From Bordetella pseudohinzii (lineage in GTDB: Bacteria; Pseudomonadota; Gammaproteobacteria; Burkholderiales; Burkholderiaceae_B), in NCBI RefSeq assembly GCF_000657795.2, contig NZ_JHEP02000005.1, forward strand, positions 62,001 through 126,000: a stretch of DNA of 64,000 nucleotides, written 5' to 3'. How positions within the stretch are numbered: position 1 is the stretch's first letter; the number at the start of each line of letters is the position of its first letter. Shown in pieces: positions 45,520 to 61,916 of the stretch. The notes below the pieces were generated by a model. The model had not been told where the DNA came from. It made no database searches and worked only from the letters and a program-made list of their open reading frames with translations. Position numbers and translations under genes: made by a program.

Positions 45520-45588
45520 CGTTGCGCCTGCCCATATTGAAGCGCAGTCCCAATGATTTGAGAATGGATGAAGTTGGAGGATACGACG

Positions 45589-46389: not shown

Positions 46390-46418
46390 ACAGGCTCTTT
46401 TTTTAAGGTTACCGCGAG

Positions 46419-47363: not shown

Positions 47364-48394
47364 AGGCAGGCAAGAAGCTCTATATTTCCGACGTGACGCT
47401 GCGCGACGGCAGTCATGCGATACGGCATCAATACAGTCTGGAAGATGCCAAGCGGATCGCGCGGGCGCTCGACGAGGCGCGCGTTGATTCCATCGAGGTC
47501 GCGCATGGCGACGGCTTGCAGGGATCCAGCTTCAACTATGGCTTCGGCGCCCACACCGATCTCGAATGGATCGCGGCAGTGGCCGGCGTCGTCAAGCACG
47601 CGAAGATCGCCACCTTGCTGCTGCCCGGCATCGGCACGGTGCACGATCTGAAGGCCGCCTATGAGGCGGGCGTGCGTGTCGTGCGCGTGGCGACGCACTG
47701 TACGGAGGCGGATGTTTCGCGTCAGCATATTGAATACGCCCGCCATCTCGGCATGGAGGCCGTGGGCTTTCTGATGATGAGCCATATGACCAGTCCCCAG
47801 GCCCTGGCGCGACAGGCCAAGCTGATGGAGAGCTATGGCGCGACCTGCTGCTATGTGGTGGATTCCGGCGGCGCCCTCGGCATGGAGGATGTGCGCGACC
47901 GTTTCCGGGCTTTCAAGGAAGTGCTCAAGCCCGAGACCGAGACCGGCATGCACGCCCACCATAACCTGAGCCTGGGCGTGGCCAATTCCATTGTCGCCGT
48001 GCAAGAGGGCTGCGACCGTGTCGACGCCAGCCTGGCCGGCATGGGGGCCGGAGCAGGCAATGCGCCGCTGGAGGTTTTCATCGCCGCGGCGGACCGCCTG
48101 GGCTGGGAGCATGGCACCGATCTCTACAAGCTCATGGACGCGGCCGATGATATCGTGCGTCCGCTGCAGGACCGGCCGGTGCGGGTGGACCGCGAAACGC
48201 TGGCGCTGGGCTATGCGGGGGTGTACAGCTCCTTCCTGCGTCATGCCGAGGCCGCCGCCCGCAAGTACGGCCTGAAGACCGTGGATATCCTGGTCGAGCT
48301 GGGGCGCCGCCGCATGGTGGGCGGGCAGGAAGACATGATCGTGGATGTCGCGCTCGATCTCTTGCGGCGCCAGGAGGCGGCCGCGAAGGCATGA
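47360..48394 (+). CDS. mhpE: 4-hydroxy-2-oxovalerate aldolase
   Basis: 344 residues. It cleaves 4-hydroxy-2-oxovalerate to pyruvate and acetaldehyde; acetaldehyde is passed to the dehydrogenase encoded just upstream. HMGL-like TIM barrel with [14 protein letters not shown] (R15, D16 and H19), [19 protein letters not shown], and the metal-binding [18 protein letters not shown], followed by [21 protein letters not shown]. It completes the lower meta-cleavage pathway to central metabolites. Confidence 0.96.
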
Positions 48395-49001: not shown

Positions 49002-50093
49002 ATGCGGTTCGGGGCATTTCGATCCATCGGAAAGCCATTGCTGCGCTCGGCCATGGATGTCGGAGCCCGGAGCCTGCCCGCGCGCCGGGCCCTGGCGTTG
49101 GCATGCGGCATGGCGCTTGGCGCCGCGCAGATTGGCGCGCAGGCCGTCGGCGCGCCGATTGAGCTTGGCGTCGCGGACTACCGCTCCTATCTTCCGGAGA
49201 CGCATTCGCTGCGGATGGCCCTGCATGCCTTTGCCCGGCAGGTCGAGACCAATAGCGGCGGAAGATTGCATGTGCGGGTATGGCCCGGCGCGCCCGCCGG
49301 TTCGCCACAAGACCAGATACAGGCGCTGCGCACGGCGGCGCCCGGGGCGCCCGACATCATGGTGGTGGCGGCCACGGGGCTGGCCGGCCTGAGCCCGGAC
49401 TTTGAATTGTTCGACCTGCCTTATGCGCTGCGCGACGACGCCAGCGTGGACGCCATTTTCGACGGCGGCGTGGGCCAGCGTCTGCTGGCCTCGCTTGCGC
49501 CAGCCGGGCTGGTCGGCCTGGGCTGGATGGAAAACGGTTTTCGCCAGCTGAGTTCTTCCCAGGCGCGGATACAGGGCTTGGCGGATTTCAAGGGCCTTGC
49601 GGTCCGCACGCTGCCCACGGCTGTTTCCACGCAGGCGTTCTCCGCCTGGGGCGCGCGGCCCGTTTCCCTGCCGGCCTCGGGCGTGCATGCCGCGCTGCGT
49701 TCGGGAACCGTCCAGGCGCAGGAAGGTTTCGTGACGCAGCTGCTGGACAGCCGGCTTTACGAGGTCCAGAGGCATGTCTGGCTGACGAATCATTCCTTCG
49801 GCGCACAAGTGCTGGTCATGAACGCGGCGGCCTGGCGCGGGTTGAGCGAGGCCGACGCCCGCGCGCTCAAGGAGGCGGCCATCGCGGCCTCGCGCGAGCA
49901 GCGCGCCGGATCCCGCGCCGAGGCCAGGCAGGCCTTGGCCGAGCTGTCGTCGCGGGGCATGCAGGTGCACCGGATGCCGCCCCGGACATTGGAAGATCTG
50001 GCGGATGCGACCGCCGATGTGCGGCGCCGGCATCCGGCCTTTCTCCAGCTCGGATCATCCCCGGTTTCCCGCTTAATGCAAAACCCCCAATAG
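49002..50093 (+). CDS. TRAP-type (DctP family) substrate-binding protein, orphan
   Basis: 363 residues from ATG 49002; ATG 49053 is an alternative closer to the signal sequence. An Ala-rich export signal (RRALALACGMALGAAQIGAQ) precedes a DctP domain: LRMALHAFARQVETNSGGRL, VRVWPGAPAGSPQDQIQALR, FELFDLPYALRDD, GLGWMENGFRQLSSS, FKGLAVRTLPTAV and AQEGFVTQLLDSRLYEVQRH. Binds a carboxylate-type ligand in the periplasm. The DctQ/DctM membrane subunits are absent; the next gene is an MFS permease. It may instead serve a distant TRAP transporter or act in signalling. Confidence 0.87.
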   Translation: MRFGAFRSIGKPLLRSAMDVGARSLPARRALALACGMALGAAQIGAQAVGAPIELGVADYRSYLPETHSLRMALHAFARQVETNSGGRLHVRVWPGAPAGSPQDQIQALRTAAPGAPDIMVVAATGLAGLSPDFELFDLPYALRDDASVDAIFDGGVGQRLLASLAPAGLVGLGWMENGFRQLSSSQARIQGLADFKGLAVRTLPTAVSTQAFSAWGARPVSLPASGVHAALRSGTVQAQEGFVTQLLDSRLYEVQRHVWLTNHSFGAQVLVMNAAAWRGLSEADARALKEAAIAASREQRAGSRAEARQALAELSSRGMQVHRMPPRTLEDLADATADVRRRHPAFLQLGSSPVSRLMQNPQ

Positions 50094-50106
50094 GCAAGAG
50101 CGTTCC

Positions 50107-51489
50107 ATGACACATCCCATCACCGCGGAAGTCCGCGAGAAACAGAAGCGGCGGGCCATTCTGGCCAGCTATATCGGCACCACGCTGGAGTACTACGACT
50201 TCCTGCTGTACGGTGTGGCCGCGGCGCTGGTGTTTCCCAAGATTTTTTTCGTCACTCTGGATCCTCTGACGGCCACCTTGTCGTCCTTCGCGACCTTTGC
50301 CGTCGGCTATTTTGCCCGGCCCCTGGGGGCGGTCGTGTTCGGACACTACGGCGACCGGCTGGGGCGCAAGAATGTGCTGGTCGTGACCCTGGTCCTGATG
50401 GGACTGGCCAGCGTGCTGATCGGCCTGCTGCCCACCTATCATCAGATCGGCATCGCCGCGCCGATCCTGCTCGTCGTGCTGCGTCTGTTGCAGGGCGTGG
50501 CGATAGGCGGAGAGTGGGGCGGCGCGACGCTGATGTCGATGGAGCACGCCAAGCCCAAGGGACGGGGGTTCGCCGTCAGCCTGGTCAGCGCGGGAGGGCC
50601 CACCGGGGCGGTGCTGGGCACCCTGGTCATGACGCCGTTCACGCTGCTGCCCGGAGAGGCTTTCCTGAGCTGGGGATGGCGCGTGCCGTTTCTGATCAGC
50701 GCCCTCTTGATGGTGCTGGGGCTGATGATCCGCCTGAAGGTCACGGAAACCCCAGAGTACGAGGCCGCGCGCCAGGCCCGCGCCGCGCAGCCGGGCCCGA
50801 AGGCGATTCCGCTGGTGACCGTGCTGCGCTACAACAAGCGCCAGATCCTGTCCGGCGTGCTCGGCGGCCTGGCCCCCTTGTCCTTCGCCACTTTCGCGGC
50901 GGCCTTTCTGCTGAACTATTCGGTCGAGGTCGGCCATACGCGCACCAGCGCGCTGATCGCGATGACCATCGCGAACTTCCTGAATATCTTCACGCTGCCC
51001 TTGTTCGGCGCGCTATCGGATCGCGTGGGCCGCCGGCCCATGATGATCACCGGCGCGCTGTCGGGCATCGTGCTGATCTGGCCCATCTTCCTGCTGGTCC
51101 ATCAGCCAGGCTTTTTTGCCTTGCTGCTGGCCATGGTGCTGGCGATGCCGCTGATACAGGCCCTCATGGGCGGGGTCTACAACACCTGGCTGAGCGAGAA
51201 GTTTGCCGCCGATGTGCGCTATAGCGGCATCGCGCTGACGTTCCAGATCGCCTCGACGCTGGGCGCGGGGCTGTCGCCCTTGATCGCCACCAGTCTGCTG
51301 GCGGCCTCGGCGGGCGGCACGCCGCAGTGGGTGGCGCTGTATTTCGGCGCGGTCTGCCTGGTCAGCTGTATCGCCTACCTCAAGGGCGGCGAGCGTTTCG
51401 ACGCGGAGCTGCCGACGCACACCGTGACCGATGAGGCGCAAGCCAGGCCGGAACCGGCATCCGGCGGTATCCATAAGCAGCTTGTCTAG
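50107..51489 (+). CDS. MFS permease of the metabolite:H+ symporter (MHS) family
   Basis: 460 residues, 12 predicted membrane segments. MHS signature: SYIGTTLEYYDFLLYGVAAA, FFVTLDPLTATLSSFATFAV, GHYGDRLGRKNVLV, LLQGVAIGGEWGGATLMSME, and SDRVGRRPMMI in the second half. Members import organic or aromatic acids with protons. Located between an orphan binding protein and a porin and beside aromatic catabolic genes, it is a good candidate for uptake of the pathway substrate. The start ATG 50107 follows the previous stop by 13 bases. Confidence 0.93.
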   Translation: MTHPITAEVREKQKRRAILASYIGTTLEYYDFLLYGVAAALVFPKIFFVTLDPLTATLSSFATFAVGYFARPLGAVVFGHYGDRLGRKNVLVVTLVLMGLASVLIGLLPTYHQIGIAAPILLVVLRLLQGVAIGGEWGGATLMSMEHAKPKGRGFAVSLVSAGGPTGAVLGTLVMTPFTLLPGEAFLSWGWRVPFLISALLMVLGLMIRLKVTETPEYEAARQARAAQPGPKAIPLVTVLRYNKRQILSGVLGGLAPLSFATFAAAFLLNYSVEVGHTRTSALIAMTIANFLNIFTLPLFGALSDRVGRRPMMITGALSGIVLIWPIFLLVHQPGFFALLLAMVLAMPLIQALMGGVYNTWLSEKFAADVRYSGIALTFQIASTLGAGLSPLIATSLLAASAGGTPQWVALYFGAVCLVSCIAYLKGGERFDAELPTHTVTDEAQARPEPASGGIHKQLV

Positions 51490-51629
51490 GGACAGCTTGC
51501 TTCCCAGGCTCGGATGAGGGGGCCATCGGCAGCGCCGGGCCTGACGAATTGACGATAGCGGAAACAGCATGGCGCGCCGGGCGCCAGGGATGTGTTCGCG
51601 CTCATAACGATAAAACACACGGAGACAAG

Positions 51630-52712
51630 GTGAAAAAAATATATGCAGCAGCCCTGATGGGAGGGCTTTGCGGGCCGGTGGCCGCCGCCACCGTGACCGT
51701 TTACGGCGTGGCCGATGTGCACATCAGCCACTACCGCCATGGCGATGGCAGCATGACCAGCATGGAGTCTGGCGGCCTGGGAGGGTCCCGCATCGGCTTC
51801 CGGGGGGTGGAAGACCTGGGCCGCGGCCGCCAGGCGGTCTTCATGCTGGAGGCGGGCTTCAATATCAACAACGGGAAGTCCGGGCAGAGCGGGCGCCTCT
51901 TCGGGCGCCAGGCTTATCTGGGCTTGCGCGACAAGGAGCTTGGGTCGCTGATTGCCGGACGTTTGCAAGGGCTGGGCTATATTTTCGGCGGGGTCTATGA
52001 CCCCATGATGGTGGCGCCCGGTTCGGTCATCGGGTCGCTGACGGGCGAAAACGCGCGTCCCTGGATGTACAACCCGCTTTCCGATCCCGCCCGCATGGAC
52101 AACGCGGTGCTGTACACGACTCCGAAATGGGGAGGCTTGCAGCTGGGCTATCAGCATGGCTTCCGCGACGATGCCGGTGTATCCGCCCTGCGCAGCAAGC
52201 GCTTCGACCTGGCGTCCCTGACCTATGCCGAAGGGCCGGTGAGCATGACCTATGGCTTTGGCCATAGCGCCGGGACCACCGGCCAGACCGCGGCCACCAG
52301 CGACCAGACCGAGCATGCTTTCGGCGTGCGCTACGCCTTGTCCTGGGCGACGCTCTTCGCGACCTACCAGTTGCGCAAGACCGACGGCTATGGCGGTTCG
52401 GATCAGGCGTGGCAGGTCGGCGCCCAGCTGCCGGCCGGCAGCGTGGGCCGGATACACCTGGCCTATGGGCGTTCGACCAATGACACGCCATTCGGTCCCA
52501 GCGACGCCAGCGCCGGCTGGGGCGTGAAATCCTGGGCGGTGGCCTATGTCTACAGCCTGTCCACGCGCACCACGCTCTATGCCTACTTCAAGCAGCTGGA
52601 CAACGACGGCAAGGCCCGGCAGGGCATTTTCCCGCCGGGCGGCCTGGACGCGCCCAGCCGTTTTGGCGACAAGGTCACGGCCTTGGGCATTGGCATGCAG
52701 CATCGTTTCTAG
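51630..52712 (+). CDS. Gram-negative general porin (Burkholderiales OmpC-like)
   Basis: 360 residues from GTG 51630, with GGAG five bases upstream. Signal peptide MKKIYAAALMGGLCGPVAAA, then TVTVYGVADVHISHYRHGDG, SGGLGGSRIGFRGVEDLG, GRQAVFMLEAGFNINNGKSG, RLFGRQAYLGL and the terminal aromatic GIGMQHRF required for outer-membrane assembly. A 16-strand trimeric porin is expected. Its place beside permease genes suggests it admits the same solutes. Confidence 0.94.
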   Translation: MKKIYAAALMGGLCGPVAAATVTVYGVADVHISHYRHGDGSMTSMESGGLGGSRIGFRGVEDLGRGRQAVFMLEAGFNINNGKSGQSGRLFGRQAYLGLRDKELGSLIAGRLQGLGYIFGGVYDPMMVAPGSVIGSLTGENARPWMYNPLSDPARMDNAVLYTTPKWGGLQLGYQHGFRDDAGVSALRSKRFDLASLTYAEGPVSMTYGFGHSAGTTGQTAATSDQTEHAFGVRYALSWATLFATYQLRKTDGYGGSDQAWQVGAQLPAGSVGRIHLAYGRSTNDTPFGPSDASAGWGVKSWAVAYVYSLSTRTTLYAYFKQLDNDGKARQGIFPPGGLDAPSRFGDKVTALGIGMQHRF

Positions 52713-52782: not shown

Positions 52783-53214
52783 ATGCGCATCCTGTCCGTA
52801 CTTGTCGGCGCGGTCTTCGTCGCCTGGATCGCCCATGGCCTGCACAACAATCCACGCTGGACATGGGCGCCCGGAGAGGGCGAGCTGCCGCGCGATGTGG
52901 TGGCCATGTATATGGACATGGCATACAAGCAGGGCGATGTCGCCCTGGCCGCGAAAACTTTCTTCTCCCCCGCCACCAAGGACGATGTTGCGCCCGGCCA
53001 GATCCTGCCCGGCCAGAAGCCATTCGAGCCCAAGATCATCCAGGTTGTCGCCGAAGGATTCAACGTGGTCGTGCGATACCGCGCGCCGTCCGAGGGCGGC
53101 GAGGCGGAGTATGTGGAGATCTTCAAGATCCATAACGGGCGCATCGCGGCAAGAGAGCGCATCGTCCGCGGCGCCGCCGCGCAACTGGCCGCCTCGCCGG
53201 CGGTCGCCCGCTAA
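52783..53214 (+). CDS. Small exported or membrane-anchored NTF2/SnoaL-like protein
   Basis: 143 residues; AAAGGA precedes the ATG. A hydrophobic N-terminus (MRILSVLVGAVFVAWIAHGL) is a signal peptide or anchor. The remainder (VVAMYMDMAYKQGDVALAAK, VVAEGFNVVVRYRAP, AEYVEIFKIHNGRI) has the pattern of the SnoaL/NTF2 fold of small isomerases, hydrolases or binding proteins. It is 12 bases before the DoxX-like gene and starts the operon that holds the two PrpD-like proteins, so it may work on the same periplasmic substrate. Function not assigned. Confidence 0.65.
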   Translation: MRILSVLVGAVFVAWIAHGLHNNPRWTWAPGEGELPRDVVAMYMDMAYKQGDVALAAKTFFSPATKDDVAPGQILPGQKPFEPKIIQVVAEGFNVVVRYRAPSEGGEAEYVEIFKIHNGRIAARERIVRGAAAQLAASPAVAR

Positions 53215-53226
53215 GAGGAGCACGCA

Positions 53227-53733
53227 ATGAACAGACTCACGCAATTCAAGCTGAGCCCGCAAGGGATAGGTCAGCTCGTCATCGCCCTGTTGCGCCTGTA
53301 TCTGGGCGCGTGGATGGTGGTCAGCGGTTCCAGCTATTGGCTGCACCAGCTGGGTTACCAACCCGTATTTCCCCAGCCTTTCGGCAGCCTGCCGGACTCC
53401 AACAAGCTGCTCATCACCTTCGTGGAGGTGGGGTTGTTCGATCTGGTGAAGAGCTTTGAAATCATCGGCGGCCTGCTGCTGATCTTCAATATCTTCGTGC
53501 CCCTGGGCCTGGTCATTCTCTTTCCGATCAGCGGCATGGTGTTCTACAACGCCGTGGTGCTGAACCAGCGCTATGACGGGATATTGTCGCTGACCTATAT
53601 GGGCACCGCCTGCCTGTACATGAATGTCGTGCTGCTGCTGGCCTATATCAAGTATTACCTGCCCATGCTGTCGTTCAATGCGCGCAGCGGCGGCCTGGCG
53701 GACTTGAAGCGCCTGCCCGAAGTGCTGCGATGA
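53227..53733 (+). CDS. DoxX-like four-helix membrane protein A
   Basis: 168 residues, four predicted membrane segments. Similar in layout and motifs to the protein at 55291: LLRLYLGAWMVVSGSSYW against WLRLYFGAHLLFSGIRY, KSFEIIGGLLLIFNIFVPLG against KYLEIMTGAMIFFNRLPLLG, and MNVVLLLAYIKYY against MNGVLLLAYSGWMF. The pattern is that of DoxX-type proteins, some of which are quinone-linked oxidoreductase subunits; here no activity is proven. It overlaps the next gene by ATGA, linking it tightly to the Tat-signal PrpD-like protein A. Confidence 0.72.
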   Translation: MNRLTQFKLSPQGIGQLVIALLRLYLGAWMVVSGSSYWLHQLGYQPVFPQPFGSLPDSNKLLITFVEVGLFDLVKSFEIIGGLLLIFNIFVPLGLVILFPISGMVFYNAVVLNQRYDGILSLTYMGTACLYMNVVLLLAYIKYYLPMLSFNARSGGLADLKRLPEVLR

Positions 53734-55265
53734 CAGCGGCGAGGCCGATCATGAAGCCTTTCTCTCCCACGCGGCGGCGCTTGGCCCAGGGTGCCATCCT
53801 GGCGGCGGGATTGTCCCTCGGCGGCGCGCGGGCGGCGGGGGGCGGCCCTGTCCGCGACAGCGCGGCGTCCGCCAGGGCCGATGCCATCGAGGACCTGGTC
53901 GATTATTGCCTGGCGACGACTTACGAAAGCCTGCCGGAAGCTATCGCCGTCATCGCCAAACAGCAGGTGCTCGACACGATAGGCGTCGCATTGGCCGGCT
54001 ACGCCGCCGACGGCGTGCGCCAGCTGCGCGAGTTCACCGCGGCCATGGGCGGCAGGCCGGAGAGCCGTATCTGGGGATCTCCGGTCGCAGTGCCGGCCCA
54101 CGAGGCGGCGCGCGTCAATGGCGCCATGGCGCATGCGCTGGACTACGACGACACGCACGAGAAATCGTATGTCCATCCCTCCGTCATCACCATACCGGCG
54201 GTCCTGGCGGTCGCCGAAAAAAGGCCGGGCGTGACGGGGCGGGACATCATCGTCGCCACGGCACTGGGCACCGACCTGAGTTGCCGGCTGGCCATGGCCG
54301 CCCAGCCCGGGGTAGATCCTTTCAAAGTGGGTTGGCACAACACAACAGTGTATGGCTATATCAGCTCCGCGCTCGCGGCCGGCAAGTTGCTCGGACTGAG
54401 CCGCCAGCAGATGATCGACGCCGCCGGCATTGCCTATCACCAGGCCGCGGGCAACGCCCAGGCCCATGTGGACGGCGCGCTTACCAAGCGCATGGGGCCT
54501 GGCTTCGCCGGTTCCGCGGGGGTGTTGGCCGCCCAGCTGGCGCAATCGGGGGTGAGCGGCGCGCGCCAGGTTCTCGAAGGACCGATAGGCCTGTACCGGC
54601 AGTACCACGGGGGCGATTACGACCGCAGCCGTCTGCTGGATGGGCTCGGCAGCCATTTCGCCGCGGCGGATCTTTCCTTTAAGCCCTATCCCTCATGCCG
54701 GGGCAGCCACACGGCCGTGGATGCGGCGCTGGCCATCCGGGGGCAGCAGGGCTTTCCGGTATCGGAGATCGCGGCCATCACCATCCAGATGGGCCCGGGC
54801 GAGTACAAGCTGCTCGGCACGCCGATCGAGGCCAAGCGCCGGCCACGCTCCAATGTCCAGGCGCAGTTCAGCAATCCCTGGATTGTCGCCACGACCCTGC
54901 TGGACGGCCGTCTTTCGCTCGCGGACTTCTCGCCCGCGGCGCTGGACCGGCCCGAGGTCCTGGCGCTGACGGCGAAGACCCATACGGCGCTGGATGCCTC
55001 CTTGCTCGCCGAAGGCGGCGGGGTGGGGCCGACCCGGCTCACGGTGGAGCTGCGGGACGGCCGTCGATACATCCAAACCGTCCGCACGGCCAAGGGCGAG
55101 CCGAATCAGCCTCTGAGCGTCGCCGAATTCGAACAGAAGTTCTCAGACTGTGCGCGGTCGGCGGGCCTGGCCGCAGGCCAGGCGGCCGCGCTCATGTCGA
55201 CCATCCTGGGCCTGGAGCGTCTGACGGACGCCCGCGCGCTCACCAGACAAATGATTCCGGCGTAA
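53730..55265 (+). CDS. MmgE/PrpD-family protein A with Tat-like signal
   Basis: 511 residues from ATG 53730 (ATG 53751 also possible). The N-terminus carries twin arginines (T14-R15-R16-R17-L18-A19-Q20), a hydrophobic stretch and ARAA, looking like a Tat signal. The MmgE/PrpD fold follows: LPEAIAVIAKQQVLDTIGVA, MAHALDYDDTHEKSYVHPS (D140, D141, H149), YHQAAGNAQAHVDGALTKR, KPYPSCRGSHTAVDAAL and RRPRSNVQAQFSNPWIVAT. The family contains 2-methylcitrate dehydratase and cis-aconitate decarboxylase, normally cytoplasmic. Export of a folded PrpD-like lyase or isomerase, paired with a DoxX-like protein, is unusual. Substrate unknown. Confidence 0.85.
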   Translation: MTAARPIMKPFSPTRRRLAQGAILAAGLSLGGARAAGGGPVRDSAASARADAIEDLVDYCLATTYESLPEAIAVIAKQQVLDTIGVALAGYAADGVRQLREFTAAMGGRPESRIWGSPVAVPAHEAARVNGAMAHALDYDDTHEKSYVHPSVITIPAVLAVAEKRPGVTGRDIIVATALGTDLSCRLAMAAQPGVDPFKVGWHNTTVYGYISSALAAGKLLGLSRQQMIDAAGIAYHQAAGNAQAHVDGALTKRMGPGFAGSAGVLAAQLAQSGVSGARQVLEGPIGLYRQYHGGDYDRSRLLDGLGSHFAAADLSFKPYPSCRGSHTAVDAALAIRGQQGFPVSEIAAITIQMGPGEYKLLGTPIEAKRRPRSNVQAQFSNPWIVATTLLDGRLSLADFSPAALDRPEVLALTAKTHTALDASLLAEGGGVGPTRLTVELRDGRRYIQTVRTAKGEPNQPLSVAEFEQKFSDCARSAGLAAGQAAALMSTILGLERLTDARALTRQMIPA

Positions 55266-55290
55266 CCGCCGTCAATAAGGGAGCAGGGAA

Positions 55291-55755
55291 ATGGCATCGA
55301 GGTCGCCTTGGTATTACATCATTCATTGGTTGCGCCTGTACTTCGGCGCTCATCTGCTGTTTTCGGGCATCCGCTACGCGGCCACCGGCTATGTGCCGGA
55401 GATCCCGGGGATAGGCGGCGAGTGGGTGCAGGCCAACGCCAATATCTACCTCTACCAGATGATCAAGTACCTGGAGATCATGACCGGCGCGATGATTTTC
55501 TTCAATCGCTTGCCGCTGCTGGGCCTGATCCTGGAGTTTCCGGCCACGATCAATATCTTCTGGCTGAACACCTTCATCGTCGCGACGCCGCGCCAGCTGT
55601 TCACCGGCCCGCAGGAGCTGTTCATGAACGGGGTCTTGCTGCTGGCGTACAGCGGCTGGATGTTCGCGGCCGTCAAGCCCAGGCTGGAACCCCTGTGGCT
55701 ATGGGACGGCGCCAAGGCTTACCAGCCGGGGATCGGTCGCCGCATGACTGACTGA
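55291..55755 (+). CDS. DoxX-like membrane protein B
   Basis: 154 residues with four hydrophobic segments; 25 bases after PrpD-like protein A. Homologous in outline to membrane protein A at 53227 (LRLYFGAHLLFSGIRYAATG, YQMIKYLEIMTGAMIFFNRL, LLGLILEFPATINIFWLNTF, FMNGVLLLAYSGWMF). The repetition of membrane protein plus PrpD-like protein shows this is one unit present twice. A role as membrane partner or electron carrier for the exported enzyme is speculative. Confidence 0.72.
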   Translation: MASRSPWYYIIHWLRLYFGAHLLFSGIRYAATGYVPEIPGIGGEWVQANANIYLYQMIKYLEIMTGAMIFFNRLPLLGLILEFPATINIFWLNTFIVATPRQLFTGPQELFMNGVLLLAYSGWMFAAVKPRLEPLWLWDGAKAYQPGIGRRMTD

Positions 55756-55800
55756 TGGCCTGCCGCCGTCGCCCGAAAACGCAGCTTTCAAGGTGAATAC

Positions 55801-55989
55801 ATGGACAAGAGTAAATGGATGGCCGTCGTGGTTTGCGTCGGCCTGACCGCCGCCGCCTATATCGGCTCCACCGGCCTTTTCTATACCGAGTTCCGGCCGA
55901 TACGCAATTACGACCTGGTGGCTTTCGCGGGGTCATGGCTGGGGCTGATCTGGCTGCTGATCCGCGATAGGAACAAGAAAGACGACTGA
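55801..55989 (+). CDS. Small two-helix membrane protein
   Basis: 62 residues: MDKSKWMAVVVCVGLTAAAY opens a first helix, and a second follows (LVAFAGSWLGLIWLLI), with a charged tail RDRNKKDD. Located between DoxX-like protein B and PrpD-like protein B in the same direction with short gaps, so it is probably a real operon member. No family recognised; an accessory subunit of the membrane unit is possible. Confidence 0.62.
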   Translation: MDKSKWMAVVVCVGLTAAAYIGSTGLFYTEFRPIRNYDLVAFAGSWLGLIWLLIRDRNKKDD

Positions 55990-56023
55990 GGTCCGCCGGG
56001 CGACAGGCCCAGGGAGAACAAGC

Positions 56024-57529
56024 ATGAACGTGACGCGCAGAAGATTCGCCCAGTTGTCGGGGTTGCTCGCCGCCGGATGGGCGGCAAGCCCCGCCTGGGC
56101 CTTGAGCCCGGCCAAGGCCGCCGCCCCGGACGGGCGGCGTACCGCCGATGCGATCGATACGCTGGCGGACTATTGCCTGAACACAAGATATGAGGATCTG
56201 CCGGCCGAGGTCATCGCCGTCACCAAGAGCCAGATTCTGGACACCGTGGCGGTCGCGCTGCCGGCGCTGGACGCCGATGGCATCCGGCAGCTCTATGCCT
56301 GGAGCAAGGAAACGGGCGGCAGGCAGGAGAGCCGGGTGCTGGGCACGGCGGTTCGCCTGCCCGCCGAGCAGGCGGCAAGACTCAATGCCTCGATGGCGGC
56401 CGCGCTGGAGTTCGACGACACCTATGAGCCTTCCCTGATGCACGCCTCCTGCGTGACCATTCCGGTGGCCTTGACGGTCGCCGACCTGGCTGGCGGCATC
56501 GACGGCAAGACCCTGATCGCCGCCGTCGCCGCCGGCACGGACGCGGCCTGCCGGCTCTCGCGCGCCGGCTCGCCCGGGGTGTCGCCTTTTGTGGTGGGTT
56601 GGGATCCCACGCCGATGTACGGTTTTTTGGCCGCTTCCCTGGTGGCGGCCCGCTTGCTGGGCCTGACGCGGGAACAGGCCGTGGCGGCCGCGGGTCTGGC
56701 TTATCACCAGCTGTCCGGCAATGCCCAGGCCAGCATCGACGGCACGCATGCCAAGCGCCTGGGCGCCGGCTTCGCCAGTTATGGCGGCGTGATGTCGGCG
56801 CGGCTGGCGCAGCGCGGCGTCTTCGGTTCTCCCCATGTGCTCGATGGGGTCAAGGGCTTGTTCCGGCAGTATCACGGCGGTCGGGTGTCGGAGGAGGCCT
56901 TGCTGGCGGACTTGGGCAGCCATTACGCCGGGCCCGAGATCGCGCCCAAGCCCTATCCCTGCTGCCGCGGCGGCCATGTGGCGATCGACGCCGCCCTGGA
57001 TCTCGTCCGAAGCCATGACATCCGTCCCGCCGCGGTGGATCATGTCAGGATATACAGCCCGCCGGCGGAGATGATGCTGCTGGGCGCGCCCCTGGAGAAA
57101 AAACAGCGTCCGCGGAGCATCGTCGAGGCGCAGTTCAGCAATCCGTGGATGGTGGCCGCCGCCATCCAGGACCGCGAGGTCAGCCTGCGCCACTTTACGG
57201 TGCAAGCGTTGGGCAGGCCCGACCTGCAGGCGCTCGCGCAACGGATGCGGACAATCGAGGACAACACCCTGGTGCGTCCGGATGGCGGGCCGGGCTTCGT
57301 GCGCGTGGAGGTGTATTTGCGCGACGGCAAGATGCACGGCAAGCAGGTCAACTATGCCAAGGGAGATCCCAAGAACCCCATGAGCGCCGAGGAGTCGCGT
57401 AAAAAATTCTACGAATGCACGGATGCCGCCGGCATGAAACGCGGGCAAGCCGCCCGGGTCATGGACCGAATTCTCGCGCTGGAGACGGAAAAAGACGTGT
57501 CCGCGCTGAATGCGGCCATGGCGATTTAG
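56024..57529 (+). CDS. MmgE/PrpD-family protein B with Tat signal
   Basis: 501 residues. A clear twin-arginine signal: T4-R5-R6-R7-F8-A9-Q10, hydrophobic LSGLLAAGWAASPAWA, with cleavage likely after AWA. PrpD fold: LPAEVIAVTKSQILDTVAVA, ASMAAALEFDDTYEPSLMHA (D131, D132, H140), YHQLSGNAQASIDGTHAKR, KPYPCCRGGHVAIDAAL and RPRSIVEAQFSNPWMVAA. Compared with protein A, the HALD histidine is replaced by Ala (AALE), while the DDT acids and the later His remain, so the two paralogues may differ in reaction. Last gene of the envelope module; a TetR gene follows after 125 bases. Confidence 0.86.
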   Translation: MNVTRRRFAQLSGLLAAGWAASPAWALSPAKAAAPDGRRTADAIDTLADYCLNTRYEDLPAEVIAVTKSQILDTVAVALPALDADGIRQLYAWSKETGGRQESRVLGTAVRLPAEQAARLNASMAAALEFDDTYEPSLMHASCVTIPVALTVADLAGGIDGKTLIAAVAAGTDAACRLSRAGSPGVSPFVVGWDPTPMYGFLAASLVAARLLGLTREQAVAAAGLAYHQLSGNAQASIDGTHAKRLGAGFASYGGVMSARLAQRGVFGSPHVLDGVKGLFRQYHGGRVSEEALLADLGSHYAGPEIAPKPYPCCRGGHVAIDAALDLVRSHDIRPAAVDHVRIYSPPAEMMLLGAPLEKKQRPRSIVEAQFSNPWMVAAAIQDREVSLRHFTVQALGRPDLQALAQRMRTIEDNTLVRPDGGPGFVRVEVYLRDGKMHGKQVNYAKGDPKNPMSAEESRKKFYECTDAAGMKRGQAARVMDRILALETEKDVSALNAAMAI

Positions 57530-57654: not shown

Positions 57655-58347
57655 ATGGTTTCTAATTTGAATGGTCGTGCCCGCAGGCCTGGCGAGCATA
57701 AATCCAGCGCCGCGGTGCGCGCCCGGATTCTCGAAACGGCTTTCGACGTTATATCCAGATTTGGCTACAACGGCACCACCATGGCCAAGGTCGCCAGCAA
57801 TGCCGCCTTGCCCATAGGCAGTGTGTACTGGCATTTTGAAAGCAAGGATCTGCTGCTGGCCGCCATGATCGACGAGAGCTTTCTGCGCTGGCGCAGCGAG
57901 ACGGCGGAACGCAACCGTCCGCGGCCGGGGGAAAGCTTCGAGGATCACGTGATGCGGATTTTCGGGTCCACGGCCAATCCAAAATACTTCGCCGCGGATT
58001 TCTGGCGCCTGGGCGTCATCCTCAGCGTGGAGAAGTCCGTTCCCGAGCAGACGGCGCGGGCGCGATTCCTCAAAATCCGCGAAACGCAAAGGGAAGAATT
58101 GACCTCCTGGTGGACGTCGACCTTGCCCGAGCCCCTCCTGGACCACGCGCCGGATCTGCCAAACAAACTCAGCATGTTCACGCTCGCGATGCAGGACGGT
58201 AATGCCATCGCGGGGGCGTCCGGCGAATCCCTGGACGATTTCCAGGCCACCCTGGCCTCCTGCCTCATCCATCTCGTGAGCCAGGCGCAGCAAAGCGTGC
58301 CGGCCAAGAGAAGCCGGACGCGCCAGGCGCGCGGCGCGGCGGCCTGA
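57655..58347 (+). CDS. TetR-family transcriptional regulator
   Basis: 230 residues. The DNA-binding N-terminus is VRARILETAFDVISRFGYNG plus TTMAKVASNAALPIGSVYWHFESKDLLLA, the standard TetR HTH; the ligand domain is unlike any I can name. It precedes the SDR-Rieske-acyl-CoA dehydrogenase run in the same orientation and probably represses it, possibly through the TTCAAAT/ATTTGAG repeats at 58396-58430. Confidence 0.92.
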   Translation: MVSNLNGRARRPGEHKSSAAVRARILETAFDVISRFGYNGTTMAKVASNAALPIGSVYWHFESKDLLLAAMIDESFLRWRSETAERNRPRPGESFEDHVMRIFGSTANPKYFAADFWRLGVILSVEKSVPEQTARARFLKIRETQREELTSWWTSTLPEPLLDHAPDLPNKLSMFTLAMQDGNAIAGASGESLDDFQATLASCLIHLVSQAQQSVPAKRSRTRQARGAAA

Positions 58348-58498: not shown

Positions 58499-59419
58499 AT
58501 GGACAGACTAAAAGACAAAGTCGGAATTGTGTTCGGCGCGGGCCCGAACATCGGCGGAACGATCGCGCATTTTCTGGCGCGCGAAGGCGCGAGCGTATGC
58601 GTGATGGACGCCAGCGAGGCGGCCGCCCGCGAAACGGCCAAATATCTCCAGGATCGCGGCCTGCGCGCCTTCGGCGTGGCGGGCAACGCGCGTGATCCGG
58701 CCGATGTCAAGGCCGCGGTCGATGCGACCATGGCCGAATATGGACGCCTCGATATCGCCGTGAACATGGCCGGGCGCGTGCATTGGAGCCATGTGCTCGA
58801 TATGGACCTGGATGACTGGAATGATTCGGTCGCTAGTTTTGCCACCGCCGGTCTGATCACGACCCAGCACTGCTCGCGCGCCATGATGGCCAGCGGCGGC
58901 GGCAGCATCATCCATATTCTGTCGACGGCGGCGCATTTCGGCGAGGCCGATGGCGCGGCCTATTGCGCCGCCAAGGCCGCGCTGCTGAACTTCGCCCGCT
59001 CTTCGGCCCTGGATCTCGCCCATCTCGGGATACGGGTCAATACCGTGACGCCCTGTTCCATGGAGCACCAGCTCTGGACCACGATGCGCGACGAGATGTT
59101 CGATCCGCAATGGCGGCAGCCCGCCAGGACGGGTTTTTATTCGCGCCAGGAGTATCTGGACCAGATGCCGCTGCGCCGTTTTCCGCGCGCGGCCGATCTG
59201 GCCTGGGCCACGGTCTTCCTGGCATCGGATGAGTCGGCCTGCATGACGGGCGCCGACCTGGCGGTCGACGGCGGGCTGCGTCACAAATACCCCACCTGGT
59301 CGCCAGGAAAACATCATCCCGTGGATGTCCGGGATTATGCCCGCGGCATTCAGCTGACCAAATATGGCGAGCCGCAAGGGCCGTTGACCGATCTGCTGGG
59401 CGAACCTGTCCAGCGATAG
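58499..59419 (+). CDS. Short-chain dehydrogenase/reductase
   Basis: 306 residues. NAD(P)-binding start KVGIVFGAGPNIGGTIAHFL and VNMAGRVHW; catalytic S142, Y155 and K159 (LSTAAHFGEADGAAYCAAKA); DLAVDGGLRHKYPTW near the end. The C-terminal tail is ~40 residues longer than in classical SDRs. With the Rieske oxygenase next to it, a dihydrodiol or alcohol dehydrogenase role is reasonable. First structural gene after tetR. Confidence 0.92.
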   Translation: MDRLKDKVGIVFGAGPNIGGTIAHFLAREGASVCVMDASEAAARETAKYLQDRGLRAFGVAGNARDPADVKAAVDATMAEYGRLDIAVNMAGRVHWSHVLDMDLDDWNDSVASFATAGLITTQHCSRAMMASGGGSIIHILSTAAHFGEADGAAYCAAKAALLNFARSSALDLAHLGIRVNTVTPCSMEHQLWTTMRDEMFDPQWRQPARTGFYSRQEYLDQMPLRRFPRAADLAWATVFLASDESACMTGADLAVDGGLRHKYPTWSPGKHHPVDVRDYARGIQLTKYGEPQGPLTDLLGEPVQR

Positions 59420-59444
59420 CTTTCCGCATGACGAGGAGACAGAT

Positions 59445-60671
59445 ATGAGCGCAATTGACGAGCGGCGCCAGGAGCGCGCGCGCCAGTTCCAGCGGCTGAC
59501 GCAATGTGACCGCGATACCGATATGGGCAAGCTGCTGCGCCGATTCTGGCAGCCGATCGAGCTGTCCGAGAACATCGAGGTCAACGCCGCCATCCCCGTG
59601 AAGGTGCTTGGCGAGGCGTTGACGCTGTATCGCGGCGCCAGCGGCGCGCTGCATCTGGTGGGCGGGCGCTGCGCGCACCGCCGCACCCTGCTGCACACCG
59701 GATGGGTGGTGGGCGAAGAGATCCGCTGCATCTATCACGGCTGGCAGTTCGACAGCAGCGGCGCCTGCGTCAAGCGCCCGGCCGAAGCCGATACCGGCAT
59801 GCCGCGCACTCAGATCGCCGCCTATCCGGTGCGGGAGTACCAGGGCCTGGTATTCGCCTATCTGGGCGAGGGCGATGCGCCGGCGTTCGACCTGCCGCGC
59901 AAGCTGCAGACCGAGCGCGAGGGCGCGCTGGTGGCCAATGGCATGGAGCGCTGGGATAACAACTGGTTCCAGCAGGTGGAGAACTCCATGGACGCCGTGC
60001 ATGTGAGCTTTGTGCACATGGCCTTGACCGTCGGGCCTTTCGGCAAGGCGGTGACGGCCGGCATTCCGGAGCTGAGCTATGAGGAAACCGCGGCCGGCAT
60101 CCGTCAGACCGCGCGCCGTTCCGAGGGCAATGTGCGCCAGAGCGATTGGACTTTCCCGAACAACAACCACATTACGGTGCCGGGTCTCACGCCCGATGAT
60201 CCCTGGCTGGATGTGTTTGTCTGGATGCTGCCCAATGATGAGCTGAATACCACGCGCTTCATGATCTACAGCCTGCCGCCTGGGGCGAGCGAGGCGTCGA
60301 AACAGCGCTTCCGCAGTTATTTCGCGAAGTATGGCAAATACGATCCGGCGGCGCATCATGAGGAGCTGTTCCGCTCGCGCGTGTGGAAGAACCCGGAAGA
60401 CACCTTCGTGGGCCTGACCGCTGCCCAGGACTATCTTTCCATCCGCGGCCAGGAGCGCGTGACCCATCGCGAGGACGAGATCCTGGGTCGCTCCGACCTG
60501 GGCATCGTGACGTTGCGCAAGATTTTCTGGCGCGAACTGGATCTGCTGCGCGACGGCAAGCAAACCAAGGCGTGGAAGGCGCTGGAGAAGCCCGTCGACT
60601 TGCCGTTGCAGCCGGGCGAGGAGGGCGGCGCCGGCCAGCCCGACACGCCGAGCGCCTACGCGCAAGCCTAA
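59445..60671 (+). CDS. Rieske non-haem iron aromatic oxygenase, oxygenase subunit
   Basis: 408 residues. The Rieske [2Fe-2S] motif is C76-x-H78 (GGRCAHRRTLL) and C95-x2-H98 (EEIRCIYHGWQF). The mononuclear iron site is in ENSMDAVHVSFVH (H186, H191). Single-component alpha subunit of the phthalate 4,5-dioxygenase/vanillate demethylase type (LLRRFWQPIELSENI, QTARRSEGNVRQSDWTFPNN). It needs a ferredoxin-type reductase, which is not encoded in the visible part. Together with the SDR and the dihydroxyphthalate-decarboxylase-like gene it suggests attack on an aromatic carboxylate (inference). Confidence 0.92.
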   Translation: MSAIDERRQERARQFQRLTQCDRDTDMGKLLRRFWQPIELSENIEVNAAIPVKVLGEALTLYRGASGALHLVGGRCAHRRTLLHTGWVVGEEIRCIYHGWQFDSSGACVKRPAEADTGMPRTQIAAYPVREYQGLVFAYLGEGDAPAFDLPRKLQTEREGALVANGMERWDNNWFQQVENSMDAVHVSFVHMALTVGPFGKAVTAGIPELSYEETAAGIRQTARRSEGNVRQSDWTFPNNNHITVPGLTPDDPWLDVFVWMLPNDELNTTRFMIYSLPPGASEASKQRFRSYFAKYGKYDPAAHHEELFRSRVWKNPEDTFVGLTAAQDYLSIRGQERVTHREDEILGRSDLGIVTLRKIFWRELDLLRDGKQTKAWKALEKPVDLPLQPGEEGGAGQPDTPSAYAQA

Positions 60672-60729
60672 GCCCCGCAACGCCGGCAGGCGCGCGGGCG
60701 CCTGCTTCACTTATGGTGTCTCGCACACA

Positions 60730-61902
60730 ATGCTTGATTTAACCCCTCACGAGGCTCTTCCTGAAGAGCTATTGATGTTCCGCTCGTCCATCCGGCGTTT
60801 CGTGGACAAAGAGCTGGTTCCGCTTGAACGCCATCTCGGCCCCGACGGTCTGCTGGACGACGGCCGCGCGCAGCACGTGCGCGATCGCGCCAGGGAGGCG
60901 GGATTCTGGCTCATGGATGTTCCCGAGGATGTCGGCGGTCAAGGGCTGTCGCTGCTGCCGCTGGCCGTTTTCTGGGAAGAGGTGGGACGCAGTACGGTGG
61001 CCTCCTGGGTCCGGCATCACGGCTTGTTCGGCCCTACTGTCGGGCCCATTCTGGCGGGCTTGGACGTCTCCCAGCGCGAGCAATACCTGTATCCGGTCGT
61101 CGACGGAAAGAAGAAGTTCTGCTTTGCCCAGACCGAGCCGGACGCGGGCTCGGATCCCTCGGCCATGCGCACGCGGGCCGTCAAGACGGAGGCGGGATAC
61201 CGCATCACTGGCGTCAAGCGCTTTATCACTCGCGCCGGGCAGGCCAGTTTCGCCCTGGTGATGGCGGTGACCGATCCGGCCAAGGGCGCCCGCGGCGGGA
61301 TTTCCTGCTTCATCGTGGACATGGACCGTCCCGGCGTGCGCCTGGCCGGCGCCGAGCGCACCCTGATGGGCGACAAACCCTGGGAGATCGCCTTCGAGGA
61401 TGTGGAGGTTCCGGCGGAGAACCTGGTCGGCGAAGAGGGCAAGGGCTTCGCCCTGGCGCAGGGCTATATCAACCATGGGCGCATACGCCAGGGCGCCCAC
61501 GCCTGCGGGGCCGCCGAGCGCTGCCTGGGCCTGACCGCCGCTTATGCGGCGCAGCGCAAGACCTTTGGCGCGGCCTTGGCGCAGCGCCAAGGCGTGCAAT
61601 GGATGTTGGCCGATGGATTCACCGAGGTGTATGCCACGCGCTTGATGGTGTATGACGCGGCCCGCAAGGCCGACGCGGGCCTGGACGCCAAACTCGAGAC
61701 CTTCATGATCAAGACTTTTGGCGTGGAGATGGGCTTTCGGGTGGTGGACGCCTGCATGCAGCTGCATGGCGGCATGGGCCTGAGCGAGGACACGCCTATC
61801 GAGCGCTTCTGGCGCGACTTGCGCAGCTACCGCATCACCGAAGGGCCGACCGAGGTGCTGCGCACCACGCTCGCGCGCCAGATCCTCAAGCAGTACAGCT
61901 GA
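60730..61902 (+). CDS. Acyl-CoA dehydrogenase
   Basis: 390 residues with the complete fold: FRSSIRRFVDKELVPLERHL, CFAQTEPDAGSDPSAMRTRA (flavin site), MGDKPWEIAFEDVEVPAENL, RIRQGAHACGAAERCLGLTA, FGAALAQRQGVQWMLAD and the C-terminal YRITEGPTEVLRTTLARQIL. The catalytic-base position in the last helix reads E in TEGPTEV. It oxidises an acyl-CoA, presumably the thioester formed by the CoA-transferase encoded 14 bases downstream. Confidence 0.94.
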   Translation: MLDLTPHEALPEELLMFRSSIRRFVDKELVPLERHLGPDGLLDDGRAQHVRDRAREAGFWLMDVPEDVGGQGLSLLPLAVFWEEVGRSTVASWVRHHGLFGPTVGPILAGLDVSQREQYLYPVVDGKKKFCFAQTEPDAGSDPSAMRTRAVKTEAGYRITGVKRFITRAGQASFALVMAVTDPAKGARGGISCFIVDMDRPGVRLAGAERTLMGDKPWEIAFEDVEVPAENLVGEEGKGFALAQGYINHGRIRQGAHACGAAERCLGLTAAYAAQRKTFGAALAQRQGVQWMLADGFTEVYATRLMVYDAARKADAGLDAKLETFMIKTFGVEMGFRVVDACMQLHGGMGLSEDTPIERFWRDLRSYRITEGPTEVLRTTLARQILKQYS

Positions 61903-61916
61903 TACGGGAATCCCTG

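Follow-up and report, generated by a model that had tools for sequence, protein, structure and literature searches.

Putative exported MmgE/PrpD proteins encoded with DoxX-like membrane partners in a catabolic island of Bordetella pseudohinzii

Enzymes of the MmgE/PrpD superfamily, such as methylcitrate dehydratase and the itaconate-forming aconitate decarboxylase, are to our knowledge treated as intracellular. The role of DoxX-like proteins is poorly understood. The phthalate catabolic set comprises a PDO-type Rieske oxygenase, a reductase, a 4,5-dihydroxyphthalate decarboxylase, a permease and a porin. Two DoxX systems offer a comparison. In the accessible text of one report, the DoxX-domain membrane protein Rv3005c of M. 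tuberculosis is described as joining the enzymes SodA and SseA in a complex (PMC6930017). In Cupriavidus metallidurans, the DoxX-related membrane protein GigT has a small periplasmic partner, GigP, and this pairing resembles the module described here; however, as set out in the accessible part of that source, the system serves metal stress and its gigPABT operon holds no PrpD or catabolic gene (PMC10304878). Compared with the accessible account of Rv3005c-SodA-SseA, the present module differs in its enzymes, in its pair of DoxX-like proteins with a small membrane protein beside them, and in its link to catabolism, and it is known from its genes alone. Within the literature collection that was searched, no paper naming both MmgE and DoxX came up.

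The window, which is the whole stretch of 64,000 nucleotides (nt) that was analysed, comes from Bordetella pseudohinzii (GCF_000657795.2, NZ_JHEP02000005.1, positions 62,001-126,000 of the forward strand). The module occupies 52783-57529 and has six genes, all on the + strand, whose ORFs are present and were chosen by codon-position composition. The first encodes a 143-residue NTF2-fold protein (52783-53214), predicted to be periplasmic, with an N-terminal membrane anchor or signal helix. It is followed by DoxX-A, a DoxX-like multi-pass membrane protein of 168 residues (53227-53733), PrpD-A, an MmgE/PrpD protein of 511 residues with a Tat-type signal (53730-55265), DoxX-B, a DoxX-like membrane protein of 154 residues (55291-55755), a small membrane protein of 62 residues (55801-55989), and PrpD-B, a second MmgE/PrpD protein with a Tat-type signal, 501 residues long and with an altered active site (56024-57529). 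A sequence-only reading had placed these six genes in one run with overlaps or short gaps, and the ORFs and the intergenic gaps of 12, -4, 25, 45 and 34 nt, of which the negative value is the overlap of DoxX-A and PrpD-A, bear this out. The NTF2-fold gene, being upstream of DoxX-A, starts before the interval 53227-57529 to which that reading had drawn attention.

The module lies inside a largely conserved catabolic island, of 27 genes in B. pseudohinzii, which had been overlooked. One branch of the island is of the HsaA/BphC/HsaD meta-cleavage type and the other of the Rieske/gentisate type. All the island genes given below with window coordinates are on the + strand. The first branch has an HsaD/BphD-type C-C hydrolase (40227-41162), a BphC/HsaC-type extradiol dioxygenase (41176-42081, searched from 41182; NCBIfam 264.6 bits, below 366.45), an HsaA-type flavin monooxygenase (42128-43303) and a protein labelled by eye as flavin-reductase-type (43335-44501, the extent being that of a tblastn match of 66% to L043 53-1237). 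The lower meta-cleavage pathway, made of 2-keto-4-pentenoate hydratase, acetaldehyde dehydrogenase and 4-hydroxy-2-oxovalerate aldolase, each above an NCBIfam cut-off, lies at 45568-48394. Uptake genes for a DctP solute-binding protein, an MFS transporter of the metabolite/H+ symporter type and a porin lie at 49002-52712, and at 58499-63053 there are genes for an SDR, a Rieske oxygenase, an acyl-CoA dehydrogenase and a class III CoA-transferase. The island extends beyond the end of the window, and its continuation in L034 (5091-8925) has 4,5-dihydroxyphthalate decarboxylase-like, gentisate dioxygenase-like, FAH-family and reductase genes. The HsaA/BphC/HsaD-like proteins and the hydratase, aldolase and dehydrogenase types recall the steroid and biphenyl pathways (HsaACD, BphCD), but the three upper enzymes fall below the equivalog cut-offs, and the island has, beyond what those pathways contain, a gentisate-type branch and the periplasmic module. 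As a candidate, the steroid HsaACD system was rejected, with scores of 336.7 against 450 for HsaA, 206 against 450 for HsaC and 225.8 against 400 for HsaD. Likeness to the phthalate genes is found in the 4,5-dihydroxyphthalate decarboxylase-like protein, which aligns with 9jp7 (residues 1-326 of 327, 509.6 bits), and, distantly, in the Rieske protein, whose top match among solved structures (102.2 bits) bears the title putative phthalate 4,5-dioxygenase; unlike in the phthalate set, a gentisate dioxygenase-like protein (222 bits, below the equivalog cut-off of 442) follows.

With belief and doubt evenly balanced, we propose that the module encodes a membrane-tethered set of periplasmic enzymes serving as front end to the island, whose pathway would break down an aromatic acid; the uptake and ring-cleavage genes of the same island favour this view. 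The PrpDs would fold in the cytoplasm, exit via Tat and work in the periplasm jointly with the anchored NTF2-fold protein, while the two DoxX-like proteins may hold them at the membrane. For a DoxX protein that takes part in a complex with enzymes, Rv3005c-SodA-SseA, in the accessible account of it, is a precedent (PMC6930017), but a single analogy is a weak point of the tethering idea. An incoming carboxylic acid, aromatic or alicyclic, could here undergo a cofactor-free proton transfer, be it an isomerisation, a dehydration or a decarboxylation, and the transporter would then take up the product. More tentatively, with doubt somewhat the heavier, we suggest that an exported MmgE/PrpD branch arose once and had its active site remodelled in PrpD-B, and that its members work at a periplasmic membrane platform built from the two DoxX-like proteins, the small membrane protein and the anchored NTF2-fold enzyme. 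There they would catalyse the opening, extracytoplasmic step of a pathway for bicyclic or diaryl carboxylic acids that has not been described before and that Bordetella, Massilia and Comamonas would share, with a related form in Sphingomonas.

Both PrpDs belong to the MmgE/PrpD superfamily, with Pfam MmgE_PrpD_N/_C scores of 218.3/119.9 bits for PrpD-A and 177.2/127.4 bits for PrpD-B against a cut-off of 32.1, and they are 47% identical. Their best solved relatives, at 162.8 and 139.3 bits, are iminodisuccinate epimerase (2hp0, 2hp3); others are cis-aconitate decarboxylase/IRG1 (6r6u, 7bra) and, for PrpD-A only, 2-methylcitrate dehydratase (1szq). The two differ from described members in their Tat-type signals and in scores far under the NCBIfam PrpD cut-offs. 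Identity with 2-methylcitrate dehydratase PrpD was rejected on equivalog scores of 52.2 against 950, 41 against 575 and 35.7 against 458 for PrpD-A, and lower still for PrpD-B. The N-terminus of PrpD-A reads TRRRLAQ, then GAILAAGLSLGG, then ARA, and that of PrpD-B reads TRRRFAQ, then LSGLLAAGWAA, then AWA, so that both have the RR motif, the hydrophobic stretch and, by eye, the A-x-A type end. A proxy pattern (RRx[FLIVMY] and, within the next 22 residues, an 11-residue segment averaging >1.3 on the Kyte-Doolittle scale) was applied to 79 PrpD loci; the two window PrpDs, the PrpD-A of B. hinzii and the PrpD-B of G001 stood outside this count and their signals were read directly. The pattern occurs at 11/12 loci of the clade holding PrpD-A and PrpD-B versus 1/67 other loci (Fisher p ~1.6e-11, a value that ignores shared ancestry). 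The non-matching clade locus, L036, has TSRRKF and a hydrophobic stretch of only 1.03, and in the single outside match, L073, the pattern is inside the mature domain. Most signals of the clade show an A-x-A type end by eye. The Tat-like signals noted earlier on both proteins are thus conserved across species. In a 41-row tree this Tat clade is a single group with support of 100/100, and TatC is encoded in the genome; these data argue for the periplasmic front-end reading.

The membrane partners are more distant from known families. Neither DoxX-like protein reaches the gathering cut-off of the DoxX family PF07681 (23.6 bits): DoxX-A scores 20.2 bits, and DoxX-B has no Pfam match at E<=1. The two align to one another (33%, 6e-13), and the label 'DoxX-like' is a weak one. 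The DoxX-B model has four long helices (pLDDT 83.6), and its best fold match is NACHO/TMEM35A with a Z of 12.1, which is under the caution level of 13 for helical bundles. Pfam SnoaL_2 matches the 143-residue protein with 17.1 bits, below the cut-off of 27. Its model, the best of five (lowest pLDDT 58.7), consists of helix 2-22 and an NTF2-like alpha+beta fold, with a best Foldseek value of 2e-4, VIA Z 12.1 and many NTF2-fold/SnoaL entries among the matches. The position of this fold behind an N-terminal helix supports the periplasmic reading, although the spread in quality of the five models counts against it. Further support comes from a DoxX-B paralogue of Comamonas (L041 9280-9933), which carries as a fusion a small domain that by eye resembles the 62-residue membrane protein. 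Alternatively, the DoxX-like pair would itself be the core, a quinone-reactive, periplasm-facing oxidoreductase oxidising the incoming substrate, fed by the NTF2-fold protein and the PrpDs as accessory isomerases or dehydratases. GigT is proposed, in the accessible text, as an electron donor to the quinol pool (PMC10304878), among the fold matches of DoxX-B the membrane part of vitamin K-dependent carboxylase ranks second (Z 8.5) and VKOR also occurs (Z ~6), and a DoxX alignment of 33 rows has R15 and K59 throughout and E62 in nearly every row. However, helical-bundle Z values below ~13 may reflect only a common arrangement, the conserved columns of DoxX-A and DoxX-B contain no cysteine and no histidine, and neither protein matches any curated quinone-oxidoreductase model, which makes this explanation unlikely.

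The active sites were compared by alignment with cis-aconitate decarboxylase, whose site set (His103, His159, His277, Lys207 and Lys272) is incomplete in both proteins; identity with this enzyme was rejected. PrpD-A has Cys for His277 and retains the equivalents of Asp93, His103, His159, Lys207 and Lys272. Its acid-base residues are the usual ones, and it is the dispensable member: of 268 family genomes, B. hinzii alone has a full orthologue (87%), so that the gene is intact in two species, and remnants occur in two others, Advenella and Paenalcaligenes (L037 and L038). In PrpD-B, Asp replaces His159, Cys replaces His277 and Glu replaces Asp93; its Ala126, Glu129 and Asp194 are at positions that are mostly His, Asp and His in relatives, while His140, Lys244 and Lys309 are retained. 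Asp at the His159 position is found in 12/12 PrpD-B rows versus 0/71 other rows, and both Glu for Asp93 and the equivalents of His103, Lys207 and Lys272 are likewise present in 12/12. Cys at the His277 position is usual among the compared rows too (45/67). PrpD-B is the constant member with a remodelled pocket and therefore probably has a different substrate or step. Citrate, aconitate and iminodisuccinate, suggested earlier, seem less likely as substrates of PrpD-B because of the Asp and Glu at His159 and Asp93 of iminodisuccinate epimerase and aconitate decarboxylase. The same replacements, with the lowered activity of ACOD1 His159Ala in the accessible results of PMC11814083 and the porin, DctP protein and MFS transporter of the island, could mean that the exported PrpDs are non-enzymatic binding proteins handing an aromatic acid to the transporter. 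We consider this improbable: the three other catalytic equivalents persist in every PrpD-B row, PrpD-A retains His159, and the island as found in the window has a solute-binding protein of its own. Moreover, 17/67 rows outside the Tat clade have another residue in place of His159, and activity may therefore survive without it.

Across genomes, PrpD-B is immediately preceded by DoxX-B and the small membrane gene at 12/12 loci, in L041 with an extra gene between, and the small gene also accompanies DoxX-B in Sphingomonas L044. The NTF2 gene adjoins DoxX-A at 13/13 loci (the 12 PrpD-B loci and Sphingomonas). Of 268 family genomes, 6 encode a PrpD that matches PrpD-A with E<=1e-100, and the same 6 carry DoxX-B; in a seventh genome with DoxX-B, G939, the gene is a fragment at a contig edge and a PrpD was undetected. 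NTF2 with DoxX-A, and DoxX-B with the small membrane protein and PrpD-B, are by gene order two conserved sets, and their co-travel is a further reason for the periplasmic front-end reading. The earlier expectation that the membrane genes travel with PrpD therefore agrees with the survey. Counter-cases are Comamonas L045, with a Tat-type PrpD and no DoxX within its 21-kb locus, and L118 of the same genome as the window and L129 of G550, where a DoxX-B relative has no adjoining PrpD (in L118 a 29% PrpD relative is 2.8 kb off on the opposite strand); in Sphingomonas the PrpD is ~4.5 kb away from DoxX-B. Such a survey had been proposed beforehand as a refuting test, and its outcome favours co-travel; the other test proposed, on signal prediction, was approached through the proxy pattern.

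The sequence-only reading had also derived the layout from duplication of a DoxX-PrpD two-gene unit, which fared worse and which we think rather improbable. Two Bordetella have the gene order of the window, and the PrpD-A remnants of Advenella and Paenalcaligenes sit between DoxX-A and DoxX-B, so the tandem layout predates the two Bordetella species. However, at 10/12 loci DoxX-A has no intact PrpD neighbour while NTF2 is always present, the two gene sets are apart in Massilia and Comamonas, and DoxX-A and DoxX-B have diverged more than PrpD-A and PrpD-B. All 12 loci, and Sphingomonas as well, have both DoxX genes, which form separate groups (support 70/84 for DoxX-A and 98/95 for DoxX-B). Duplication of the unit is unsupported because the constant partners differ, NTF2 for DoxX-A and the small gene for DoxX-B, and a recent one because PrpD-A and PrpD-B, which split deep inside the Tat clade, are by the tree old subfamilies. 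A very old duplication of the unit, followed by losses of PrpD-A, is possible. That the twin-arginine segments do not direct export and the PrpDs are cytoplasmic pathway enzymes, as the characterised MmgE/PrpD enzymes known to us are intracellular, is quite improbable, since the signal is clade-specific and conserved in its RR, hydrophobic stretch and mostly A-x-A type end, and the gene partners are membrane proteins or carriers of an N-terminal helix.

If the periplasmic front-end reading is true, MmgE/PrpD chemistry would extend to the periplasm through a conserved clade of exported proteins that have membrane partners of their own, and DoxX-like proteins could be tested for a role as platforms for enzymes. 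Since the island also occurs in environmental species, Massilia niastensis and Advenella alkanexedens among them, it would offer a concrete route to identifying the substrate. A gene for a TetR-type regulator (57655-58347, + strand, Pfam TetR_N) lies directly 3' of PrpD-B in the window, and this arrangement is found at 6/12 loci (the window, L035, L038, L041, L043 and L032).

The six genes of the module are arranged head to tail, with intergenic gaps of 12, -4, 25, 45 and 34 nt. They encode an NTF2-fold protein (52783-53214), DoxX-A (53227-53733), PrpD-A (53730-55265), DoxX-B (55291-55755), a membrane protein of 62 residues (55801-55989) and PrpD-B (56024-57529). The window is part of contig C44 in a genome of 4.54 Mb, and the closest named relative found at the module locus is Bordetella hinzii LMG 13501, with 94% for PrpD-B. 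Both MmgE/PrpD Pfam domains are found in PrpD-A and PrpD-B, far above the cut-off. These two proteins have a sequence identity of 47%, and their best solved relatives are IDS-epimerase and cis-aconitate decarboxylase (ACOD1). DoxX-A and DoxX-B share 33% identity across 123 columns, and support for the DoxX label from Pfam is weak. For the 62-residue protein, the best Pfam matches, a phage holin family and DUF6010, were far below the cut-off. Plasmid records searched with DoxX-B gave no match, while those searched with PrpD-B gave matches of less than 60% identity only.

The Tat-like signals that the sequence-only reading had assigned to both PrpD proteins are supported by their distribution. 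An alignment of PrpD-A and PrpD-B orthologues was used to scan 84,980 species genomes, in a search that reports only sites matching one of two short peptide patterns. The scan gave 170 confirmed PrpD relatives, of which the best 80, corresponding to 79 loci, were kept. One fixed Tat pattern, RRx[FLIVMY] followed within 22 residues by an 11-residue stretch with a mean Kyte-Doolittle value above 1.3, was run on all 79 loci. Among these best 80 of 170 relatives, the pattern is present in 11 of the 12 loci of the Tat clade (L035-L045 and L047) and in 1 of the 67 other loci, L073, where the motif lies within the mature domain (Fisher's exact p ~1.6e-11, a value that ignores shared ancestry). The twelfth locus of the clade, L036, has the motif TSRRKF, followed by a hydrophobic stretch that falls below the threshold. 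In a tree of 41 rows, which we chose from an 88-row alignment, the 16 Tat rows form one clade with a support of 100/100. PrpD-B (12 rows) and PrpD-A (2 rows) are separate from each other, each with 100/100, and a long-branch warning applies to the rows outside the Tat clade. The predicted signal was thus probably gained once and then kept. A TatC gene is present in the genome. Of the five other PrpD proteins encoded there, four had a usable sequence, and none of these four shows a twin-arginine signal in the stretch inspected by eye. Two MAGs titled Bordetella parapertussis (L074 and L111), a naming that may be wrong, contain PrpD relatives that fall outside the Tat clade.

The two PrpD proteins differ at positions equivalent to functional residues of ACOD1. 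Two papers name His103, His159, Lys207, Lys272 and Tyr318 (PMC12259180) and also His277 (PMC11814083); in the latter, the activity of ACOD1 is abolished by His103Ala and by His277Ala, and lowered by His159Ala. These positions were transferred via a HMMER alignment, in which the chain numbering, counted by eye, is one ahead, and via the 88-row alignment. Tyr318, which had no placement in the alignment, was left out. PrpD-A and its B. hinzii orthologue retain Asp93, His103, His159, Lys207 and Lys272. In all 12 rows of PrpD-B, His103, Lys207 and Lys272 are retained, Asp is found at the position of His159 and Glu at that of Asp93, and the conserved His that precedes the latter (residue 126) is replaced by Ala. 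Outside the clade, among the best 80 of 170 relatives, His159 is kept in 50 of 67 loci and replaced by Asp in none, Asp93 is kept in 62 (Glu in 5), and residue 126 is the conserved His in 63 (Ala in 1). The position of His277 holds Cys in 45 of these 67 loci and His in none, so that the absence of His277 is nothing unusual. Nor is PrpD-B alone in having lost His159, which is retained in only 50 of the 67 loci; Asp at this position is confined to PrpD-B in the set compared, the best 80 of 170 relatives. On these residue and score tests, PrpD-B falls in neither the methylcitrate dehydratase nor the aconitate decarboxylase group, and it differs from PrpD-A. In Bordetella genome G001, PrpD-B (L032 17177-18680) matches as two overlapping pieces near the C-terminus, which probably reflects a disrupted gene or a sequencing error.

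PrpD-B was compared at 12 loci: the window, B. hinzii (L028/L035), genome G031 (L031/L043), Bordetella G001 (L032), Advenella (L037), Paenalcaligenes (L038), Comamonas (L041), and L036, L039, L040, L042 and L047. At every one of them, PrpD-B is directly preceded by DoxX-B and the small membrane gene, with one intervening gene in Comamonas L041, and NTF2 adjoins DoxX-A, as it also does in Sphingomonas canadensis (L044). Of the 268 genomes of the family, 6 encode a PrpD with a match to PrpD-A at E<=1e-100, and DoxX-B is found in the same 6; the seventh genome with DoxX-B, G939, has it on a contig-edge piece and lacks such a PrpD match. The expectation that the membrane genes travel with PrpD is thus upheld. 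In wider surveys, DoxX-B was detected in 2 of the 399 genomes examined from the order, one of them that of B. pseudohinzii, and the DoxX-A/B profile matched 3 of 398 genomes of the phylum, B. pseudohinzii and two with distant relatives. Several loci count against an obligatory link. Comamonas L045 encodes a Tat-type PrpD at a locus without DoxX, the distant DoxX genes of L129 have no PrpD, and 4.5 kb separate PrpD from DoxX-B in Sphingomonas. At a DoxX-B paralogue in the B. pseudohinzii genome (L118), the nearest PrpD relative (29%) is 2.8 kb away on the opposite strand. The DoxX neighbourhoods of genomes G550 and G554 (L129, L130 and L131) contain no PrpD among homologues of the island genes of the window, and yielded no functional clue.

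Some of these loci have further features. In Comamonas sp. NoAH, a DoxX-B paralogue fused to a domain resembling the small membrane protein (L041 9280-9933) sits between the small gene and PrpD-B. The Tat-type PrpD of L045 (9893-11389), a second one in this strain with 48% to PrpD-A, lies on a contig separate from that of the island, close to relatives of acyl-CoA dehydrogenase and CoA-transferase and a gene that is TctC-like by eye. No publication on this strain was found in the literature searched, which lacks most subscription journals. In G550, a distant member of the phylum, two tandem DoxX-like genes (L129 9565-10667), of which the second has an additional membrane segment at its C-terminus, lie in a 20-kb stretch with no homologue of the other island genes.

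The L118 paralogue of DoxX-B (43%; contig C13 20942-21367, equivalent to L118 10936-11364) has its own small membrane gene beside it, near 11387-11575. Such paralogues (39-43%) are found in 5 of the 7 genomes of the family that bear DoxX-B and in none of the 261 others (E<=1e-20), and because of this confinement the second locus may form part of the same system. G001 has its paralogue inside the island. Upstream of the L118 DoxX locus is a gene for an exported-looking protein of 273 residues, which has no match in Pfam or NCBIfam and no similarity to the NTF2 profile; beyond copies from its own locus, it was found only in B. hinzii (L150).

The module had also been read as the product of a duplication of a DoxX-PrpD two-gene unit. 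Among the 268 genomes of the family and 11 island genomes, an orthologue of PrpD-A (87%) is found only in B. hinzii. Decayed pieces of PrpD-A lie between DoxX-A and DoxX-B in Advenella (L037 9034-9280, tblastn 7e-9) and Paenalcaligenes (L038 8197-8460, 2e-7), both values coming from a very small search; the same kind of search gave no convincing piece in the corresponding interval of G031 (L031). These remnants indicate that PrpD-A was formerly present at L037 and L038 and has since been lost, which makes an old duplication of the unit, followed by loss, possible. A recent duplication was rejected on synteny and trees, as DoxX-A and DoxX-B form separate groups (98/95 for B, only 70/84 for A), both occur at each of the 12 PrpD-B loci and at L044, their constant neighbours differ (NTF2 for DoxX-A, the small membrane gene for DoxX-B), and PrpD-A and PrpD-B are split.

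The predicted model of DoxX-B (pLDDT 83.6, from 33 sequences) has four long helices. Foldseek gave no match under 0.001 for this model, and VIA-align matched it to NACHO/TMEM35A (Z 12.1, rmsd 3.1 over 116 residues) and next to vitamin K-dependent carboxylase (Z 8.5); as matches between helical bundles, these are suggestive only. The model of the NTF2-like protein (pLDDT 81.2, the best of five, the lowest being 58.7) has a helix at residues 2-22 followed by an NTF2 fold, and matches structures of SnoaL, ketosteroid isomerase and limonene epoxide hydrolase. Most likely, the module would provide a periplasmic PrpD set on a DoxX platform, acting before uptake. The PrpD proteins would fold inside the cell, be exported via Tat and, together with the anchored NTF2-fold protein, sit on a platform of DoxX-A, DoxX-B and the small protein, where a proton-transfer reaction would act on the incoming acid ahead of its uptake. 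The nearest analogy is a DoxX protein reported in complex with two enzymes (PMC6930017). Alternatively, DoxX may be a redox enzyme, by analogy with GigT, for which a redox role has been proposed (PMC10304878). DoxX genes have also been described near a 2-aminophenol cluster. As for the platform with exported PrpD, no paper naming both MmgE and DoxX was found, again with most subscription journals outside the search. In one paper that mentions both MmgE and twin-arginine, the passage concerns an unrelated neighbour gene, and among the titles and abstract openings listed for related literature there was no pointer to an exported MmgE/PrpD clade.

In this species, the module lies inside an aromatic-compound catabolic island comprising 27 genes. 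On its upstream side are genes for a flavin-reductase-type protein (43335-44501, plus strand), a LysR regulator, 2-keto-4-pentenoate hydratase, acetaldehyde dehydrogenase, 4-hydroxy-2-oxovalerate aldolase, a hemerythrin-like protein, DctP, an MFS transporter and a porin, as well as HsaD-, BphC/HsaC- and HsaA-type enzymes. The likeness of the latter to steroid HsaA/C/D is real, yet all score below the NCBIfam equivalog cut-offs, and a steroid pathway was rejected. Downstream are genes for TetR, SDR, Rieske oxygenase, acyl-CoA dehydrogenase and CoA-transferase. The island continues beyond the end of the window (L034 5091-8925) with genes for a 4,5-dihydroxyphthalate decarboxylase-like protein, a gentisate dioxygenase-like cupin, an FAH-family hydrolase and a reductase. 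From the known enzyme types, one ring is presumably opened by meta-cleavage and the remainder passed to a second ring-cleavage branch; phthalate-like, diaryl and anthraquinone-like acids were considered as candidate substrates. Gene order and content of the island differ among loci, the order also in L044, and no hydratase or DctP gene was seen in the island of G031. SDR and Rieske were seen at 11 of the 12 loci; the L037 contig stops 144 bases past PrpD-B. Elsewhere in the window, an ORF of 2522 residues on the minus strand (19706-27274) has a start that, by eye, is polyketide-synthase-type in appearance.
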